DNA of 43,409 nt, taken from contig NZ_AZRY01000155.1 of the NCBI RefSeq assembly GCF_000520515.1, positions 1 through 43,409 on the forward strand, in the 5' to 3' direction. Source of the DNA: Arthrobacter sp. H20. Lineage in GTDB: Bacteria > Actinomycetota > Actinomycetes > Actinomycetales > Micrococcaceae. Below are positions 10,974 to 35,321 of this stretch, in pieces (the first letter of the stretch is position 1; every line of letters starts with the position of its first letter). Position numbers and translations under genes: made by a program. The notes beneath the pieces are model-generated. The model was not told the DNA's origin, did not search any database, and saw only the letters and a program-made list of their open reading frames with translations.

Positions 10974-11957
10974 ATGCGACGCCTTTCCACATCCACAGGC
11001 CTTATTGGGGTAGCAGCCGTGGCGCTGGCACTGACCGGGTGCGGGCAGTCTCAGGGTGAAAGCGCTTCAGTCGACACCGCTGGGGACAGCATTCAGGTCG
11101 TCGCCTCGACCAACGTCTACGGCGATATCGCCGAGACCATCGGTGGGGACGGCGTCTCGGTCACCTCTATTGTTGACAGCCTGGCGCAGGATCCGCACTC
11201 CTATGAGGCAACGGTTCAGGACAAGCTGGCTGTGTCCGAAGCTGATCTCGTGATCGAAAATGGTGGCGGGTATGACCCGTTCCTCCATAATCTTGCCGAC
11301 GAGGTGGAAATGGACCACGACTTCATGATCTCGGCCGTGAGCATTGCCGGGTACGACGAGGGTGAGTCTGAAGAGGAGCACGCTGAGCACGAGGGTGAGT
11401 CTGAAGAGGAGCACGCTGAGCACGCCCACGGATCATTTAATGAGCATGTCTGGTATGACCTTGAGGCGATGGGTGCGGTTGCCGGCGCCATCGGTGACAA
11501 GCTTTCAGAAATAGATCCGGAGAACGCTGAAACATACAGTGCCAATGTCGGAGAATTCAACGACGGCATCGCAGCGCTTACCGACAGGCTCGCCGCGATG
11601 AGCGCTGATTCAGACGGCGAAACGGTTGCAATTACCGAACCGGTTCCGGTCTACCTCCTCGAAGCAGCAGGGCTCGAGAACATCACGCCGGGGGACTACA
11701 GCGAGGCGATTGAGGAAGGGTCGGACGTATCAGTGGCCGTCCTCAACGAAATGATGACCCTCATGGAAGACGAATCCTTGGCCTTCCTTGCCTATAATGA
11801 GCAGACGGAGAGTCCCCAGACCCAGGCCGTCCGTGACGCAGCGGACGCGGCGGGGGTGGAAATCGTCAACTTCACCGAGACAGTGCCTGATGGGGAAGAC
11901 TTCCTGACCTGGATGACTTCCAATGTGGACGGTATCGAAAGCGTTCTCAACCCCTGA
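10974..11957 (+). CDS. znuA: Zinc ABC transporter substrate-binding lipoprotein
   Basis: 327 aa from ATG 10974, with GAGG upstream. The lipoprotein signal peptide (residues 1-23) ends in the lipobox LTGC, so the protein is anchored outside the membrane. The cluster A-I fold is clear: VASTNVYGDIAETIGGD, DPHSYEATVQD, NEHVWYDLEAM (a metal-binding His region), and LAFLAYNEQTESPQTQAV near the end. Between the domains lies an acidic, His-containing loop made of two identical copies of EGESEEEHAEH followed by AHG, typical of zinc-binding ZnuA loops. The Zur-type operator upstream and the zur gene nearby favour Zn2+ over Mn2+. It is the first gene of the znuABC cluster. Confidence 0.88.
   Translation: MRRLSTSTGLIGVAAVALALTGCGQSQGESASVDTAGDSIQVVASTNVYGDIAETIGGDGVSVTSIVDSLAQDPHSYEATVQDKLAVSEADLVIENGGGYDPFLHNLADEVEMDHDFMISAVSIAGYDEGESEEEHAEHEGESEEEHAEHAHGSFNEHVWYDLEAMGAVAGAIGDKLSEIDPENAETYSANVGEFNDGIAALTDRLAAMSADSDGETVAITEPVPVYLLEAAGLENITPGDYSEAIEEGSDVSVAVLNEMMTLMEDESLAFLAYNEQTESPQTQAVRDAADAAGVEIVNFTETVPDGEDFLTWMTSNVDGIESVLNP
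11358..11423 (+). repeat. Perfect 33-bp tandem duplication in the znuA metal loop
   Basis: Two identical 33-bp units (11358-11390 and 11391-11423) encode EGESEEEHAEH twice. They are identical at the DNA level, including the third codon positions, so the duplication is recent or kept uniform by slippage. Copy-number change would alter loop length by 11 residues without a frameshift. Confidence 0.95.
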
Positions 11958-14937: not shown

Positions 14938-16592
14938 CTCCTTGGCGAAACGGTCACAGTGGAGACTTGTTCCAGCTCCGGCGAGAGATGATCGCCGTCG
15001 ACCACTACGCCGCGCTCCCACCAGAGGCGCAGACCGTCCGGCCCGTCTTCGAGACCGGCGAGGTTGTTGTCGAACCAGGGGCCCTTTAACCGGGTCCAGC
15101 GGAAGGGCGGATCAGGGACCTTGGCGGAGCGGGCTACCAGTGCGCCCACCGGGCTGGCGACGCCGTAGGAGAGGATGGCAGTCGCAAAGCGCATCGCGCG
15201 GGGGAGCGGGTTACGGATCGGCGAGCAGACGGCCTGGATGATCCGGCTTCCTGACGAGCGCTCCACCTCGGAAACGTACGAGAAATGCACGTCGCCGGAG
15301 AGGAATGTGACAGTCTCGGGTGCCTTGCCACGTTTCCCGTCCGCCACTTCAACCGCCATCTTTGCCACCGCCCTGAAGCTGCGTTGGAAAGCACCCCAAT
15401 GCTCAAGATCGACGGTGCGCCGCATTTTTTCACCGATCTTTGCGCCAAACGTACCCCAGGCGCCGTCGGCCAGCGCTTCGTTCCACGCCTCAATGTGGTG
15501 CAGCCCAGGGGGCAGCAGGAAGGGGAGCGAGGTGGCAACCAACAGATGCCTGAAGCCGCCCTGCATCTGCCCATCGAGCCAGGCCAACTCCTGCTCATCC
15601 AGCACCGCCCGCTTCTCGGGGGTGAGCACCCGGCCCGCTCGGGAGTCGAGGACCACCAGGCGGACGTCGCCGATCTCCCGGGCGAAGCTCCACCGGTAAG
15701 TGGAGGGCTGCTGGTTGGTCCGGTCGGCGAATCGGTCCAGCACATCACTGATGTCCAGTTCCGCCTCACCGTGGTGGGCGCTGATCAGCTGCCAGATTTC
15801 GTCCTCCGCGCGGTGCTCTGGGGAGAGGTTACCCAAATGTTGGTGCACCCAGTAGGACGCCAGGCCCGAGACGATTCGCCCCTGCCACCAGGAGGTCGCC
15901 TCCATCGCCTGTTTCCATTTCAGTGACGTGTTCCAGTCGTCCCGGATGTCATGGTCGTCGAAGATCATCGCGCTGGGCAGGGTGGAAAGCAGCCACCGGT
16001 TGGCGTCGTCGGACCAGGCGAGGTTGTACAGGTGGGCGTACTCCTCGTAGTCCTTGAGCTCCTCGCCCGGTTCTTCCTCAATGTTCCGCCGTGCCCTGAT
16101 GAACTCCTGCATCGCGTCGCTGGTCACGTCGGCGTACACCTGGTCGCCGAGGAACACCACCAGATCGGGCCAGGCCACGTCGTCGACCCCCCCCGCCATG
16201 TTGAGGGCGTAGGCACGCATCGAGTCGACGCCGTGTTTGCCGTTCCCGGCTTCGTTGTGCGGCACACTGGTCCGGCACGAGCCAAAGGCCAACTTGATCG
16301 GTCGACCCGGGGTCAACGTGGCAATCATTGACGGGGGAAACGCTGTCCCGGCTTTGGGCCATACCTGCTCGCCATCTATCGACACCGTGTACTCGGTGAC
16401 GGTTCCGGGTTCCAGGCCGTCAGCCTCCACCAGGGCGTAGTGGTGGCCGTGGACGCCGAACGTCCTGGCGTCCCAGGACTGATCGCCGGCAGCAACAGTT
16501 ACCTGCGCAGCGTGTCGGGTTTCCACCCAGATACTGGCCGAGGTCAGATCGACATAACGCATCATGGGACCAAGCACCAGGGAATCAGTCAT
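14934..16592 (-). CDS. PhoD-like metallophosphatase (alkaline phosphatase D family)
   Basis: 552 aa from ATG 16592. Residues 1-80 form a beta-sandwich (SASIWVETRHAAQVTVAAG). The phosphatase core then starts at KLAFGSCRTS near residue 95. Metal-site motifs are VVFLGDQVYAD (about 150), IFDDHDIRDDWN (about 210), LVVLDSRAGRVL and FLSGDVHFSYVSE (about 430). No signal peptide is visible, unlike secreted Bacillus PhoD, so a cytoplasmic or differently targeted phosphodiesterase/phosphatase is likely. The gene sits behind its own leaderless promoter, 44 nt downstream of the PLP-enzyme gene. Natural substrate unknown. Confidence 0.87.
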   Translation of the reverse strand: MTDSLVLGPMMRYVDLTSASIWVETRHAAQVTVAAGDQSWDARTFGVHGHHYALVEADGLEPGTVTEYTVSIDGEQVWPKAGTAFPPSMIATLTPGRPIKLAFGSCRTSVPHNEAGNGKHGVDSMRAYALNMAGGVDDVAWPDLVVFLGDQVYADVTSDAMQEFIRARRNIEEEPGEELKDYEEYAHLYNLAWSDDANRWLLSTLPSAMIFDDHDIRDDWNTSLKWKQAMEATSWWQGRIVSGLASYWVHQHLGNLSPEHRAEDEIWQLISAHHGEAELDISDVLDRFADRTNQQPSTYRWSFAREIGDVRLVVLDSRAGRVLTPEKRAVLDEQELAWLDGQMQGGFRHLLVATSLPFLLPPGLHHIEAWNEALADGAWGTFGAKIGEKMRRTVDLEHWGAFQRSFRAVAKMAVEVADGKRGKAPETVTFLSGDVHFSYVSEVERSSGSRIIQAVCSPIRNPLPRAMRFATAILSYGVASPVGALVARSAKVPDPPFRWTRLKGPWFDNNLAGLEDGPDGLRLWWERGVVVDGDHLSPELEQVSTVTVSPRS

Positions 16593-17731: not shown

Positions 17732-17819
17732 CCGGGCCCACCCGTTCCAGCTCGGAGGAGTTGACGGGCTGTGGATTGGAGTACGGGCCCGGGCTGTGGT
17801 GGACTTGTGCTGACAAGGC

Positions 17820-17857: not shown

Positions 17858-18688
17858 ATGAAGACTCTGATGGACGTGCAGGCCCTGCGGGACCGGATGA
17901 CCTCCGGTGCGCAGACGGTCCTGCTGGATGTCCGCTGGGCGTTGGGCGATCCCCACGGCCACGGTCATTACCATTCAGCCCACATTCCCGGCGCGGTCTA
18001 CGTTGACCTTGAAGCCACGCTCAGCGGTGAACCGTCGGCACGGGAGGGTAGGCACCCGCTCCCGGGCATCGATCGGCTGCAGGAAGCCGCGCGCCAGTGG
18101 GGCATCAACGACGGCGATGTGGTGGTGGCCTATGACAACTCAGGCAATACGTCAGCCGCCCGGCTGTGGTGGCTGTTGCGCTGGGCGGGCCTGGATGCTG
18201 TGCACCTGCTCGATGGTGGGCTGGCCGCCTGGACCAGCGCTGGCTTCGAGACCGAGGGCGGAGAGGAACAGCATTGCCTCGGCGAGGTGGAACTGAACCA
18301 CGGGTCCATGCCGGTTGTGGACATTGACAGAGTTCCGGAGATTGCAGAGCACGGCGTGCTGCTCGATGCCCGGGCGGACGAGCGATTTCGTGGGGAAGTG
18401 GAACCGCTGGACCCCAAGGCTGGTCACATTCCCGGGGCGGTCGGCGCTCCAACGACTGGAAACCTCACCGCTGATCAGCGGTTTAGGACGCCGGCCGATC
18501 TGCGCCGCCGCTTTGAGGCACTGGGTGTCAGGGATGCCGTCGAGATCGCTGTGTATTGCGGATCGGGGATCACCGCCGCCCATCAGATAGCAGCCCTGGA
18601 GATCGCAGGTTATCCAGCTGCGCTGTACCCGGGGTCCTGGTCGCAATGGTCCTCACGGTCCGATCTACCAGTGGCAACGGGCGCCTGA
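17858..18688 (+). CDS. sseA: Rhodanese-type sulfurtransferase (3-mercaptopyruvate sulfurtransferase-like)
   Basis: 276 aa from ATG 17858, chosen because AAAGGAG lies 7 nt upstream; the frame is open 29 codons further but without an SD. Two rhodanese domains occupy about residues 1-125 (inactive, starting VQALRDRMTSGAQTVLLDVRW) and 145-270. The catalytic Cys is C234 in VYCGSGITAAH. A CGSGxTA loop is typical of mercaptopyruvate sulfurtransferases, whereas thiosulfate enzymes have charged CRxGxR loops. It moves sulfane sulfur from 3-mercaptopyruvate to thiol acceptors or cyanide. Its divergence from a cysteine-desulfhydrase-like gene fits cysteine/sulfide metabolism. Confidence 0.88.
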   Translation: MKTLMDVQALRDRMTSGAQTVLLDVRWALGDPHGHGHYHSAHIPGAVYVDLEATLSGEPSAREGRHPLPGIDRLQEAARQWGINDGDVVVAYDNSGNTSAARLWWLLRWAGLDAVHLLDGGLAAWTSAGFETEGGEEQHCLGEVELNHGSMPVVDIDRVPEIAEHGVLLDARADERFRGEVEPLDPKAGHIPGAVGAPTTGNLTADQRFRTPADLRRRFEALGVRDAVEIAVYCGSGITAAHQIAALEIAGYPAALYPGSWSQWSSRSDLPVATGA

Positions 18689-18715
18689 AGACCCGCCACA
18701 ACTGTCACCCCATCG

Positions 18716-18773
18716 TCGAGTCAACACGAATGACCGGTTTCCGGCGCGAAACACGTTATTTCTGTTGACTCGA
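18716..18773. repeat. Palindromic dispersed element, copy A
   Basis: A 58-bp element made of two inverted 25-nt arms around an 8-nt centre. The outer 11 bp are perfect (TCGAGTCAACA/TGTTGACTCGA). Its left arm matches copy B at 34161 in 23 of 25 positions. It lies 27 nt after the sulfurtransferase stop and 20 nt before the HIT gene start, and could act as a terminator, an RNA structure or a protein-binding dyad. Confidence 0.85.
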
Positions 18774-18793
18774 TCCGGAACCAGAGGAGTTGC

Positions 18794-19225
18794 ATGAGTA
18801 CCCTATTCACCAAGATTATCGACGGCGACATTCCCGGGCGGTTTATCTGGCAGGACGACGACGTCGTGGCGTTCCTCACCATTGCCCCGCTCACTGATGG
18901 ACACACCCTGGTCCTCCCACGGCAGGAGGTAGCACACTGGGTGGAGGCGGAACCGGAGCTCCTCGCCAAGGTGATGGCGGTGGCTCAAACGGTAGCGAAG
19001 GCCCAGACGGCTGTGTTCGCTCCGAAACGGGTGGGGGTGCTGATGGAAGGGTACGAGGTGCCTCATCTGCACGTCCATGTCTGGCCGACGCAGAGCGCCA
19101 AGGACTTCGACGTGCACGCCGTCGACCACAACCCCGATCCTGCCATCCTGGACGCCAACGCCCACGCCCTCCGGGAAGCCCTCCGCTCGGCCGGGTACGG
19201 GGCGCACGTTCCCGAGACGAGCTAG
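18794..19225 (+). CDS. HIT family protein (histidine triad nucleotide hydrolase/transferase)
   Basis: 143 aa from ATG 18794, with SD GAGGAG. The opening STLFTKIIDGDIPGRFIWQDDDVVAFL is the classic HIT N-terminus. The histidine triad HLHVHVWP has H91, H93 and H95, with H93 or H95 as nucleophile depending on alignment. An earlier conserved His (DGHTLVLPRQEV, H37) also belongs to the fold. It is probably a nucleoside phosphoramidase or dinucleoside polyphosphate hydrolase of the HinT type. It is monocistronic: palindromic element copy A lies just upstream, and the hrpA gene converges from the other side. Confidence 0.9.
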   Translation: MSTLFTKIIDGDIPGRFIWQDDDVVAFLTIAPLTDGHTLVLPRQEVAHWVEAEPELLAKVMAVAQTVAKAQTAVFAPKRVGVLMEGYEVPHLHVHVWPTQSAKDFDVHAVDHNPDPAILDANAHALREALRSAGYGAHVPETS

Positions 19226-31899: not shown

Positions 31900-34092
31900 G
31901 TGACTGAAACCACTGACCTGTTATCAGGTGTGGACACATCAACCGCCGGCACAGCCGACGCTCCCGCTTCCAAAAGCTCCGGCCTTGCCGGGCTGAAGCT
32001 CGCCCAGCTCCAGGCCCTTGCCGGCCAACTGGGTATCACCGGCGGGTCCAGGATGCGCAAAGGCGACCTGGTCTCGGCCATCTCAGATCATCAGCGTGGT
32101 TCAGCGGTTGCAGACCGTCCCAAGGACGGCTCAGCAACCGAAGGAAACGGTGCCGCGGAGCCAGAATCCAGCCAGTCAAACGGGTCCACCCGTTCCTCGC
32201 GCCGTTCGTCCGGCCGCGCCGGAAGCCCCGCCGCTGCCGCTTCATCGGACGGCGAGGAGACTGCACCAGAGCAGACCGAACGTCCTTCGCGTACCCGGAA
32301 CCGTAATCGGCGTGCCGGATCCGACGGCGTTGTAAGCGTACCGACCGCTGACGCCGCCCAGCCGGAGGCGACTAACGGTTCAACAGGCGACGATGCCGAC
32401 AACAACGGCAGCGACAACAGCGGCCGTGACAACAGCGGAGAGCGGTCACGTGGACGTTCCCCCCGCGAGAATCGCCGTGGCCGTCGCGGCGAAGAGCGCG
32501 CTGAGGGCACGTCGAGTGAGGCAGCCGAGTCGTCGTCCGATGAATCCTCGCGTGGCGCCGACCGGGGCAGCCAGGGTGGCGACTCGGCCACCGGTTCCAA
32601 CGAGCAGACCGAGTCGAACGGCCGCAATGATCGTGGCGGACGCACCCGGAATGACAACCGGAACGACAACAACGACAACCGGAACAACGACAACCGGAAC
32701 GACAACAACCGGGATGATGACAGCCGGGGCCGCAACCGCAACCGCCGCAACCGTAATTCCCGCGATGACAGCGGCAACGGAAATGATCGCGGAAACGACC
32801 GCGGCAATGATCGCGGAAACGACCGCGGACAGGGCAATGACCGTGGCAGCCGGTTCCGTGACCGCAACGACAGGAACGACCGTCGTCGCAACCGCAACCA
32901 GAACCCCGAGGTCGACGACGTCGAGGTCACTGACGACGACGTCCTGCTGCCCGTCGCTGGCATCCTCGACGTCCTGGAAAACTACGCGTTCGTGCGGACC
33001 TCGGGCTACCTGCCCGGCCCCAACGATGTCTACGTATCCCTGGCCCAGGTCAAGAAGCACAATCTGCGCAAGGGCGACGCCGTGGTTGGCGCCATCAGGG
33101 CGCCCCGTGACGGCGAGAACCAGAACAACACGCGCCAGAAGTTCAACGCGCTGATCCGCGTCACTTCGGTGAACGGCAAGCCCGCAGAGGACCTCAAGGA
33201 CCGCGTTGAGTTCGCCAAGCTGGTCCCGTTGTATCCCACCGAACGCCTGCGCCTTGAGACTGAGGCGAAGAAAATCGGGCCTCGAGTCATCGACCTGGTG
33301 GCGCCCATCGGCAAGGGCCAGCGCGGTCTGATCGTTTCGCCGCCGAAGGCAGGCAAGACACTCATCCTGCAGGCCATCGCCAACGCGATCACCATCAACA
33401 ATCCTGAGGTTCACCTCATGATGGTGCTGGTCGACGAACGGCCCGAGGAAGTCACCGACATGCAGCGCACGGTCAAGGGGGAGGTCATTGCCTCGACCTT
33501 CGACCGGCCAGCTGATGACCACACCACGGTCGCCGAACTCTCCATCGAACGCGCCAAGCGTCTCGTGGAGATGGGAATGGATGTGGTGGTGCTGCTCGAT
33601 TCGATGACACGTCTGGGCCGTGCCTACAACCTGGCAGCGCCGGCCTCCGGCCGGATCCTGTCCGGTGGCGTGGACTCCGCTGCTCTCTACCCGCCGAAGC
33701 GCTTTTTCGGTGCAGCCCGCAACATCGAAAACGGTGGATCCCTCACCATCCTTGCCACTGCACTCGTGGAGACCGGGTCCAAGATGGACGAGGTCATCTT
33801 TGAGGAGTTCAAGGGCACCGGCAACATGGAACTGCGCCTGTCCCGGAACCTCGCCGACAAGCGGATCTTCCCGGCGGTTGATGTGAACGCGTCAGGTACC
33901 CGTCGTGAAGAGAAGCTGTTGTCCCCGGACGAGGTCAAGATCATGTGGAAGCTGCGCCGGGTTCTGTCCGGACTGGGCGAGCAGCAGTCACTTGAATTAC
34001 TGACCAACAAGATTCGGGAAACCCAGTCGAACGTCGAGTTCCTGATGCAGGTCCAGAAGACCACGCTCGGTTCCAAGAACGACGACGACTAG
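31900..34092 (+). CDS. rho: Transcription termination factor Rho with long disordered insert
   Basis: 730 aa from GTG 31900, against about 420 for E. coli Rho. Residues 25-65 are the Rho N-terminal SAP-like domain (LAGLKLAQLQALAGQLGITG). Residues 70-345 are a disordered insert: Ser/Glu-rich first, then Asn/Asp/Arg/Gly-rich. The cold-shock-like RNA-binding domain starts near 348 (PVAGILDVLENYAFVR). The RecA-type motor has Walker A SPPKAGKT at 480-487, VLVDERPEEVTDM and VVVLLDSMTRLGRAYN. In Micrococcus luteus a comparable insert lets Rho act on structured high-GC RNA. The hexameric helicase terminates transcription. Confidence 0.97.
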   Translation: MTETTDLLSGVDTSTAGTADAPASKSSGLAGLKLAQLQALAGQLGITGGSRMRKGDLVSAISDHQRGSAVADRPKDGSATEGNGAAEPESSQSNGSTRSSRRSSGRAGSPAAAASSDGEETAPEQTERPSRTRNRNRRAGSDGVVSVPTADAAQPEATNGSTGDDADNNGSDNSGRDNSGERSRGRSPRENRRGRRGEERAEGTSSEAAESSSDESSRGADRGSQGGDSATGSNEQTESNGRNDRGGRTRNDNRNDNNDNRNNDNRNDNNRDDDSRGRNRNRRNRNSRDDSGNGNDRGNDRGNDRGNDRGQGNDRGSRFRDRNDRNDRRRNRNQNPEVDDVEVTDDDVLLPVAGILDVLENYAFVRTSGYLPGPNDVYVSLAQVKKHNLRKGDAVVGAIRAPRDGENQNNTRQKFNALIRVTSVNGKPAEDLKDRVEFAKLVPLYPTERLRLETEAKKIGPRVIDLVAPIGKGQRGLIVSPPKAGKTLILQAIANAITINNPEVHLMMVLVDERPEEVTDMQRTVKGEVIASTFDRPADDHTTVAELSIERAKRLVEMGMDVVVLLDSMTRLGRAYNLAAPASGRILSGGVDSAALYPPKRFFGAARNIENGGSLTILATALVETGSKMDEVIFEEFKGTGNMELRLSRNLADKRIFPAVDVNASGTRREEKLLSPDEVKIMWKLRRVLSGLGEQQSLELLTNKIRETQSNVEFLMQVQKTTLGSKNDDD
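32650..32712 (+). repeat. Asn/Asp/Arg codon repeat in rho
   Basis: Imperfect tandem copies of GACAACCGGAAC with AACGACAAC spacers encode repeating DNRN/NDN units. The purine-rich plus strand would itself be unstructured RNA, which may matter for Rho loading on its own message. Confidence 0.85.
32773..32847 (+). repeat. Tandem 12-bp NDRG codon repeat in rho
   Basis: Five near-identical 12-bp units (AATGATCGCGGA and variants with AACGACCGCGGC) encode NDRG repeats, the last after a GQG break. Alternate units share codons, so the array probably grew by duplicating a 24-bp pair. Slippage would change length in frame. Confidence 0.9.
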
Positions 34093-34103: not shown

Positions 34104-34144
34104 CCGCCCACGCTCGTCCGGTCCGCCGGATAGAGCGTGGGCGG
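34104..34144 (+). terminator. rho 3' terminator hairpin
   Basis: A perfect 12-bp stem CCGCCCACGCTC/GAGCGTGGGCGG (34104-34115, 34133-34144) has an inner TCCGG/CCGGA stem in its loop. It starts 11 nt after the rho stop and is followed by the weakly T-rich TGTTGTGCTT. Confidence 0.85.
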
Positions 34145-34160
34145 TGTTGTGCTTAACCAA

Positions 34161-34213
34161 TCGAGTCAACAGAAATGACCGGTTTGCCGCCCGGGGTAGG
34201 TTATATCTGTTGA
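34161..34213. repeat. Palindromic dispersed element, copy B
   Basis: Left arm 34161-34185 matches copy A (18716-18740) at 23 of 25 positions. The right end GTTATATCTGTTGA matches GTTATTTCTGTTGA of copy A. The 14 bases between are different in sequence but equal in number. A perfect 8-bp TCAACAGA/TCTGTTGA stem remains. It lies between the rho terminator and prfA, 31 nt before the prfA ATG. Confidence 0.85.
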
Positions 34214-34244
34214 ATGGAATTCGTCCGAAAGAGGTATTTTCCAA

Positions 34245-35321
34245 ATGTTTGAGTCGATCCAGAACCTGCTCGACGAGCACGCCGAGCTGCAGCTACGGCT
34301 CTCGGACCCGGCAGTGCATTCCGACCAGGTCCTGGCCCGCAAGCTCGGCCGCAGGTACGCCGAGCTCAGCGGTATTGTCGATGCGCATACCAAGTGGGAG
34401 GCGCTCAAGGACGACCTTGAGGCAGCGCAGGAAATGGCTGACGACCCCGAATTCGCGGCCGAAGTGCCGGTCCTCGAGGAACAGTTGGCCGCGGCACAGG
34501 AACGTCTGCGCCGTCTCCTGATCCCACGCGACCCCAACGATAGCCGTGACGTCATCATTGAGGTCAAGGGCGGCGAAGGCGGCGACGAGGCAGCATTGTT
34601 CGCCGGCGATCTGCTGCGCATGTACACCCGCTACGCTGAAACCCGCGGCTGGAAGACCGAGATCATCTCCGCCAACGAGTCCGATCTTGGCGGGTACAAG
34701 GATGTCCAGATGGCGATTAAGGGCTCGTCCAACGACCCCGGGGAGGGCGTCTACGCCCGCCTGAAGTTCGAGGGTGGCGTTCACCGCGTGCAGCGTGTTC
34801 CAGTCACCGAATCGCAGGGCAGGATCCACACCTCCGCAGCGGGAGTTCTCATCCTGCCTGAGGTTGACGAGCCGGAGGAAGTGGAGATCAGCCAGAACGA
34901 TCTGAAGATCGACGTCTACCGCTCATCAGGGCCTGGCGGTCAGTCAGTGAACACTACTGACTCGGCCGTGCGGATCACTCACCTCCCGACGGGAATTGTG
35001 GTTGCGATGCAAAACGAGAAGTCCCAGCTGCAGAACCGTGAAGCGGGGATGCGGGTGCTCCGGTCCCGGATTCTGGCACACCAGCAGGAGCAGATTGATG
35101 CAGCGAACTCCGATATCCGGAAGTCGCAGATCCGCACGATGGATCGCTCCGAGCGCATCCGCACCTATAACTACCCTGAGAACCGCATCGCTGATCACCG
35201 AACCGGGTACAAGGCCTACAACCTTGATGCGGTAATGAACGGTGACCTCGAAGCGGTGGTCCAGGCAGGCATCGAAATGGACGAGCAATCCCGGCTTGAC
35301 GCAATTGGCGAGGACGACTGA
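34245..35321 (+). CDS. prfA: Peptide chain release factor 1
   Basis: 358 aa from ATG 34245, with GAGG about 11 nt upstream. The codon-recognition motif is PVT (186-188, in [21 protein letters not shown]), the PxT class of RF1, so it reads UAA and UAG. The peptidyl-hydrolysis motif GGQ is at 231-233 ([18 protein letters not shown]). The C-terminus [19 protein letters not shown] is typical. Cytoplasmic. prmC, which encodes the methyltransferase of this GGQ glutamine, follows 11 nt later, the standard pairing. Confidence 0.97.

Follow-up and report, generated by a model that had tools for sequence, protein, structure and literature searches.

To our knowledge, the bacterial palindromic repeats that have a partner enzyme are all tied to HUH transposases, in the arrangements called REPtrons. 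According to PMC3733652, REP palindromes are 20–40 bp long and one of their ends is marked by a GTAG or CGTC tag. The two palindromic elements described here are in a 43,409 bp stretch of DNA from Arthrobacter sp. H20, referred to as the window; the genome (G000) is 3.44 Mb in 88 contigs and is 94.6% complete. We think it probable, while keeping considerable reserve, that both belong, as solitary copies, to a REP-like family of palindromes partnered by a predicted nuclease with AbiEi-like and DUF559 (Vsr-like) domains. Repeats and nuclease look like an undescribed repeat-plus-nuclease system. No report of DUF559 with such palindromes was found in the open-licence PMC literature, and closed or preprint reports are possible.

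The window elements and their family

The two elements and their neighbours are as follows:

17858–18688, + strand: rhodanese/sulfurtransferase gene (Pfam Rhodanese), upstream of the HIT copy; its start is the gene caller's choice, and the ORF begins at 17771
18715–18774, no strand: 60 bp palindromic element, HIT copy, 26 nt past the rhodanese/sulfurtransferase stop
18794–19225, + strand: HIT-domain protein gene (Pfam HIT), downstream of the HIT copy
31900–34092, + strand: rho (Pfam Rho_RNA_bind and Rho_N), upstream of the prfA copy
34104–34144, + strand: GC-rich hairpin with arms at 34104–34115 and 34133–34144, read by eye from the letters
34160–34219, no strand: 60 bp palindromic element, prfA copy, with a degenerate right end, in the rho–prfA gap
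34245–35321, + strand: prfA (Pfam PCRF and RF-1), downstream of the second copy

The GC-rich hairpin, judged by its sequence, is probably the terminator of rho itself and lies outside the palindrome family. Short repeats at 32398–32825 encode an Asn/Arg/Asp-rich stretch in the N-terminal part of rho, and a 33 bp perfect tandem repeat lies within an ORF at 11356–11421.

The original prediction, made from the letters of the window, described a 58 bp element with a second copy, and both are where it placed them. The HIT copy has 11 perfect outer pairs, the left arms of the two copies are identical at 23/25 positions, the centres diverge at equal length, and the start codons, read from the letters, are 20 and 31 nt past the element ends it gave. 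The full element is approximately 60 bp, a palindrome with a unit consisting of ATCGAG, a variable 4–5 nt and a core ending in ATGAC, and with about eight free central bases. That the two copies share an orientation, as was also remarked, carries little weight, because the element is palindromic and the hairpin model built for the family matches both strands. The model matches span 18713–18776 and 34158–34221. With up to three mismatches allowed, the left-arm pattern has three matches in the window, namely both left arms and the right arm of the HIT copy, against 0.01 expected from shuffles. Both copies fold better than shuffled sequences (z −5.9 for the HIT copy, which beats 200/200, and z −3.4 for the prfA copy, which beats 199/200). 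A search of positions 15000–36000 of the window against Rfam gave no match to either element with an E-value of 5 or less.

Two is the right number of copies for the window, and the genome has nine, all of fixed length; an additional partial match at C78:83575 is doubtful (E 0.0014, single strand). The hairpin model, built from 59 copies that come partly from the genomes later compared, matches 34/37 genomes of the Arthrobacter group (E up to 0.01) and 36/149 Micrococcaceae genomes, representing 14/32 genera (E up to 0.001). A pattern scan matched Arthrobacter echini, Arthrobacter agilis, Arthrobacter bussei and others, with a few matches in unrelated taxa. In one other genus, three genomes (G115, G090 and G171) hold about 60 copies each, with forward/reverse half-site matches of 60/59, 60/61 and 56/56 and no match to the reversed pattern; two further genomes of this genus (G184 and G155) have one and none of this type. 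The near-constant columns of the Arthrobacter set are C5 G6 A7, C13 A14, A18 T19 and C22, with their mirror letters, and C5 G6 A7 is found in 90% or more of the 59 aligned elements, which are near-symmetric and approximately 60 bp long. In other genera the palindrome core also differs, with length and symmetry kept. The arms are alike within a genome and different between species.

The family takes several further forms. G022 has approximately 29 palindromes (58 matches over two strands), among them those of a second arm type that has no known cassette. Close pairs of palindromes are seen in G031, with spacings of 92 and 253 bp (L097 2390–2545 and L041 1500–1816). A palindrome with the same core is present in Cryobacterium ruanii, which belongs to another family (L144 1775–1834), beside what we take, from the letters, to be the 3′ end of fabF. 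Two other roles were considered and rejected. For an uptake sequence, there were only two unpaired half-sites at three mismatches, against one for the reversed pattern. An origin-centred chromosome-organising site was raised by the G022 palindromes, which, among the matches listed, lie at 0–0.9 and 2.5–3.6 Mb of the single contig; the prfA copy at 2.08 Mb (L109) breaks this pattern.

Across the 59 copies, arm covariation is 0.318, compared with 0.168 after shuffling. Columns 10–12 change on both arms between species, with 21–22 double changes each, and columns 9 and 15 have 10 and 13. Covariation is not seen in every genome. Among 17 copies in G115, the arms pair at 432/476 positions versus 391 expected, a value reached by 0/2000 shuffles; G022, with two sub-types, also pairs beyond shuffles (p 0.004), and G000 does so weakly (p 0.017). 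In G005 the arms pair no better than at random (283 versus 286.6, p 0.77), which counts against the nuclease as partner, although this genome is itself without the nuclease. We infer that arm pairing is maintained in genomes with a living system and decays in those from which the nuclease has gone. Simple copying of the whole element would not be expected to leave the arms nearly constant and the centres free, a further point against the favoured explanation.

Between G115 and G090, nine orthologous copies agree at 510/541 letters (94%), with two compensated double changes and 18 pairs otherwise changed. Copies can therefore stay in place for a long time. Five of the 12 G090 stretches had been chosen for the model matches they were known to contain. 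Seven of the nine copies compared come from these five, so no rate of movement is drawn from them; the stretches chosen by offset alone contain two copies (L203 and L208), and both were kept.

Conservation at orthologous positions differs between the two window sites. A prfA match was present in 38/38 genomes of the genus, and model matches to the prfA copy were found in 11/30 fetched prfA loci, the window's included, with two more copies (in G016 and G031) identified by position. The arm sequence of the prfA copy varies with the species (G016 and G031, for instance, have GTGCG), and among the 30 fetched loci the prfA gap of other species gave no model match. The HIT copy is in G000 and, orthologously, in G005. 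Two close relatives, G008 and G010, keep both genes but have no palindrome at this site, and their stop–start gaps are 43 and 67 nt; the G000 gap is 105 nt, or 45 nt without the element. The HIT gene was found in 13/20 fetched stretches, 12 of them readable upstream, and the hairpin model detected no element in any of the 20. The difference at the HIT site is insertion-like, between sequences too diverged for a target-site duplication to be read. The prfA copy is older than the HIT copy. The earlier observation of two palindromic elements is confirmed and was understated. All three grounds it named for rejecting its interpretation (a genome with just the two copies, no orthologous conservation, no arm covariation) are contradicted by the nine copies in the genome, the conserved prfA copy and the covarying arms, and the interpretation is partly supported.

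A predicted nuclease gene beside the palindromes

Three palindrome pairs, approximately 1.06–1.08 kb apart in three species, enclose the same kind of ORF. All three ORFs match PF04480 (DUF559) above the cut-off (21.5–23.1 versus 20.6 bits), as do all 14 genes of the genus scan described next, and a match to PF18741 is under its cut-off. The N-terminal part, about residues 18–150, matches the PADLOC AbiEi models in 3/3 proteins (best E-values 2e-11, 8e-13 and 6e-6). NCBIfam has no family for two of the three and one match, far below cut-off, for the third; the best hit in a search of solved structures was GlmU (E 0.046), and a single-sequence structure prediction had a mean pLDDT of 42. The PF04480 matches point to a DUF559/Vsr-like predicted nuclease, which probably cuts DNA.

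The genus scan covered 53 loci, comprising 50 DUF559 loci and the three pair-enclosed ORFs, and used a motif scan for family palindromes. It yielded 14 distinct nuclease genes (15 loci; L250 is the same as L260), carried by 14 genomes of the genus, that adjoin such palindromes, 10 on both sides and four on one, and for two of these four a second palindrome was seen on closer reading of the locus. At 38/53 loci no family-type palindrome adjoins the gene, which counts against the proposed partnership. A strict palindrome scan (20 of 24) found palindromes on both sides of one and on one side of six of the 14 genes; it recovers few because the cassette palindromes of the genus are more degenerate, hence the use of the motif scan there. 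The acidic motifs R-P-D and E-Y-E-G-E-H-H are invariant in 14/14 proteins, 13 of which are 50–84% identical to the A. echini protein. The G022 gene (L094, C1:3603474–3604608) is frame-broken upstream. In the cassettes that were read, there is no second gene between the palindromes.

When the protein family was searched for in 61 genomes, picked for the presence or absence of repeats or cassette, 149 matches were found in 48 of them. The 70 that were examined (30 at loci already returned and 40 fetched; G016:C76, of like strength, was left out) have palindromes of 54–70 bp on both sides in 31 cases, on one side in 21 and on neither in 18. Among 216 control genes from stretches not chosen for elements, the counts were 0 and 4 for both sides and one side, and this is the fair control; an earlier one (1 and 31 of 140) came partly from element-chosen loci. 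Four further strong matches (0 both, 2 one, 2 none) bring the totals to 31, 23 and 20 of 74. The genes without any palindrome also count against the partnership. The left and right palindromes of many pairs are visibly alike and those of paralogues differ, as seen without scoring.

Outside the family Micrococcaceae, a class-wide search found a match in 69/197 genomes. At 28 loci of other families (29 minus the G000 locus), a looser rule gave palindromes on both sides in 11 cases and on one side in 12, versus 0 and 3 of 212 controls. The plasmid NZ_CP012477.1 of Arthrobacter sp. ERGS1:01 encodes a ‘hypothetical protein’ (WP_054009319.1) with a palindrome on each side; of two other plasmid matches, one is flanked on a single side and the other on neither. 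The 9-mer described below is upstream in all three. In family f38, from several large-genome actinomycetes, a common GTTGATCATGGAGAA-type palindrome surrounds DUF559 genes (L361–L364, L367, L370 and L371). A distant relative of the nuclease on a phage-labelled contig, which may be bacterial DNA, has a 59 bp palindrome about 0.1 kb downstream (L405; MT837503.1).

A 9-mer, TTNTCCACA on either strand, is upstream of 63/83 distinct nuclease genes (64/84 entries, L271 and L094 being one gene) and downstream of one, compared with 0 upstream and 4 downstream of 404 control genes. Three of the four added nuclease genes also have it upstream. In most cases it reads TGTGGATAAC on the sense strand, and it lies 28–37 nt before the start in 12/14 genes of the Arthrobacter set; of the other two, L259 is without it and one is the broken G022 gene. 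Loci of other families have it in 9/28 cases. We take this 9-mer, by consensus, to be a putative DnaA box.

Likeness between scattered copies and cassettes bears on the partnership in both directions. Scattered copies resemble the cassette palindromes of their own genome at 18.1/22 positions and those of other genomes at 14.1/22, in a comparison of 63 of the 68 scattered copies (the other five had no cassette palindrome to compare) that was not corrected for phylogeny. The own cassette is best or tied for only 36 of the 63, the second palindrome type of G022 has no known cassette, and the main palindrome type of G090 does not match the one cassette tested; all three count against the nuclease as partner. 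Genomes with a cassette have a median of 14.5 model matches (n = 14, four subtracted) versus 4 in those without (n = 23; p 0.001, phylogeny uncorrected). G005 and G016, with 30 and 35 model matches and no cassette found, again count against it.

The cassette has a preferred site. Ten genomes, from two genera, have the nuclease gene between purH and a transporter gene, with only one palindrome found in G184; of the other cassettes, four share a second neighbourhood and the one in G029 is in neither. In the corresponding gap of G000 (181 nt) and G005, a single palindrome without the nuclease lies between recognisable edges, from which we conclude that the cassette was probably lost from both, leaving one copy. 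The best nuclease match in G000 is a paralogue at C27:35435–36319 (L365, the same as L261; E 4e-60). It scores above the PF04480 cut-off, yet a Pfam search with the matched stretch gives no family at 1e-4 or better. The paralogue is preceded by the 9-mer and, under the looser rule, followed about 100 nt downstream by a 61 bp palindrome of a different type, the arm of which was found nowhere else among 389 fetched loci; by the stricter rule there is no adjoining palindrome.

Gene-end positions and competing explanations

When positions were assigned with our own gene caller, 42 of 110 distinct copies were in gaps between convergent genes, 54 in tandem gaps, 13 in divergent gaps and one inside a called gene. 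In 152 other gaps of the same loci, the figures were 15, 84 and 53. In tandem gaps, 38/54 copies are nearer to the upstream stop (median 26.5 versus 91 nt). The placement in front of a start codon, to which the original prediction drew attention, is thus incidental. Each of the eight copies that were folded gives a hairpin that scores better than those of nearly all shuffled sequences. Among the copies displayed, judged by inspection, most have no T-tract behind the stem, and L208 is one that does.

Relatives of H20 carry the nuclease gene between two palindrome copies, with further copies scattered behind other genes. On the favoured explanation, the N-terminal domain would recognise whatever in the arms is lineage-specific, the nuclease domain would nick or cut the extruded hairpin or dyad, and break repair or copying would spread the palindrome and keep the copies alike. 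The cassette-type nuclease seems to have been lost from G000, at its level of completeness, and from the genomes closest to it, which would make orphans of both copies in the window. As 3′-end hairpins working in both directions, these copies may still have a function. In a more tentative extension, which may well be wrong, the predicted nuclease family would be Actinomycetes-wide and, with its DnaA-box promoters, made in step with replication initiation to act on cognate hairpins extruded at forks; repeat, nuclease and replication would then form one coupled, mostly vertically inherited system.

The strongest competitor holds that the palindromes are bidirectional terminators or mRNA 3′ stabilisers kept by the host, and that the nuclease gene, selfish-like, merely carries one at each end. 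The excess of convergent positions, the proximity to upstream stops, the hairpins formed by 8/8 folded copies and the near-identity of the nine orthologous copies, with their two compensated changes, are what it would predict. Terminators have no need of a shared sequence, yet the arms are alike genome-wide and differ between species; most displayed copies also lack the T-tract, 13/110 lie between divergent genes, and the prfA copy comes after a separate rho hairpin. As flanking of one nuclease family on both sides is also left unexplained, we regard this account as unlikely.

Less likely still is that the palindromes are sites for autoregulation by the AbiEi-like domain, with the scattered copies serving as decoys or genome-protecting marks in a system akin to toxin-antitoxin or defence systems. 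The PADLOC matches in 3/3 proteins, palindromes near the gene and a DnaA-box-like site at a fixed upstream place would suit it, but neither a site downstream of the gene nor some 60 dispersed copies, most of them behind genes, would be usual for an operator, and the cassettes read contain no second gene. That the palindromes are operators of an ordinary regulon, as the two window copies and an aceA–aceB copy upstream of start codons might suggest, is most improbable given the over-representation of convergent positions and identified neighbours with no evident common function.

Comparison with known systems

If the repeat-plus-nuclease reading is correct, the place of the REP partner is held, in one bacterial family, by a non-homologous and uncharacterised nuclease family, with like cases elsewhere in the class. 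DUF559 proteins would gain a testable substrate, and gene-end hairpins in Arthrobacter and its relatives would be accounted for. The question of why bacteria retain repeat–enzyme pairs for so long could also be put to a second, independent example.

Several described systems share features with this one. Miniature inverted-repeat transposable elements (MITEs) and other elements with terminal inverted repeats are likewise short non-coding palindromes with a gene-carrying relative, but here a whole palindrome, not half of one, is at each end of the nuclease gene. As with homing endonuclease genes, the nuclease gene may spread by break repair, which concerted arm change within species would fit; unlike them, it was not seen in introns or inteins, and the repeat spreads without the gene. 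An AbiEi-like N-terminal domain is shared with AbiE-type toxin-antitoxin systems, but in this case it is fused to a nuclease domain.

The closest parallel is with REPtrons, which, in the excerpt of PMC8266576, share with this system short, scattered, extragenic and lineage-specific palindromes and an enzyme gene flanked by copies and held at one place across species. The RAYT-type Y1 HUH transposase domain (PF01797) is absent from 38/38 genomes of the genus and present in one of 12 other Micrococcaceae that have the repeats (G197). The original suggestion of a REP-like family thus stands as an analogy, without the transposase it implied, and we conclude from the absence of the domain across the genus that the palindromes are not REP/RAYT elements. 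The enzyme is a DUF559/Vsr-like nuclease here and an HUH Y1 transposase there; the palindromes here are approximately 60 bp and near-symmetric, those of the Arthrobacter type have CGA at each end, a GTAG or CGTC tag is lacking, and a DnaA-box-like site lies upstream of the gene. As the REPtron layout is present while the defining transposase and tag are absent, the system works like a REPtron but is not one.
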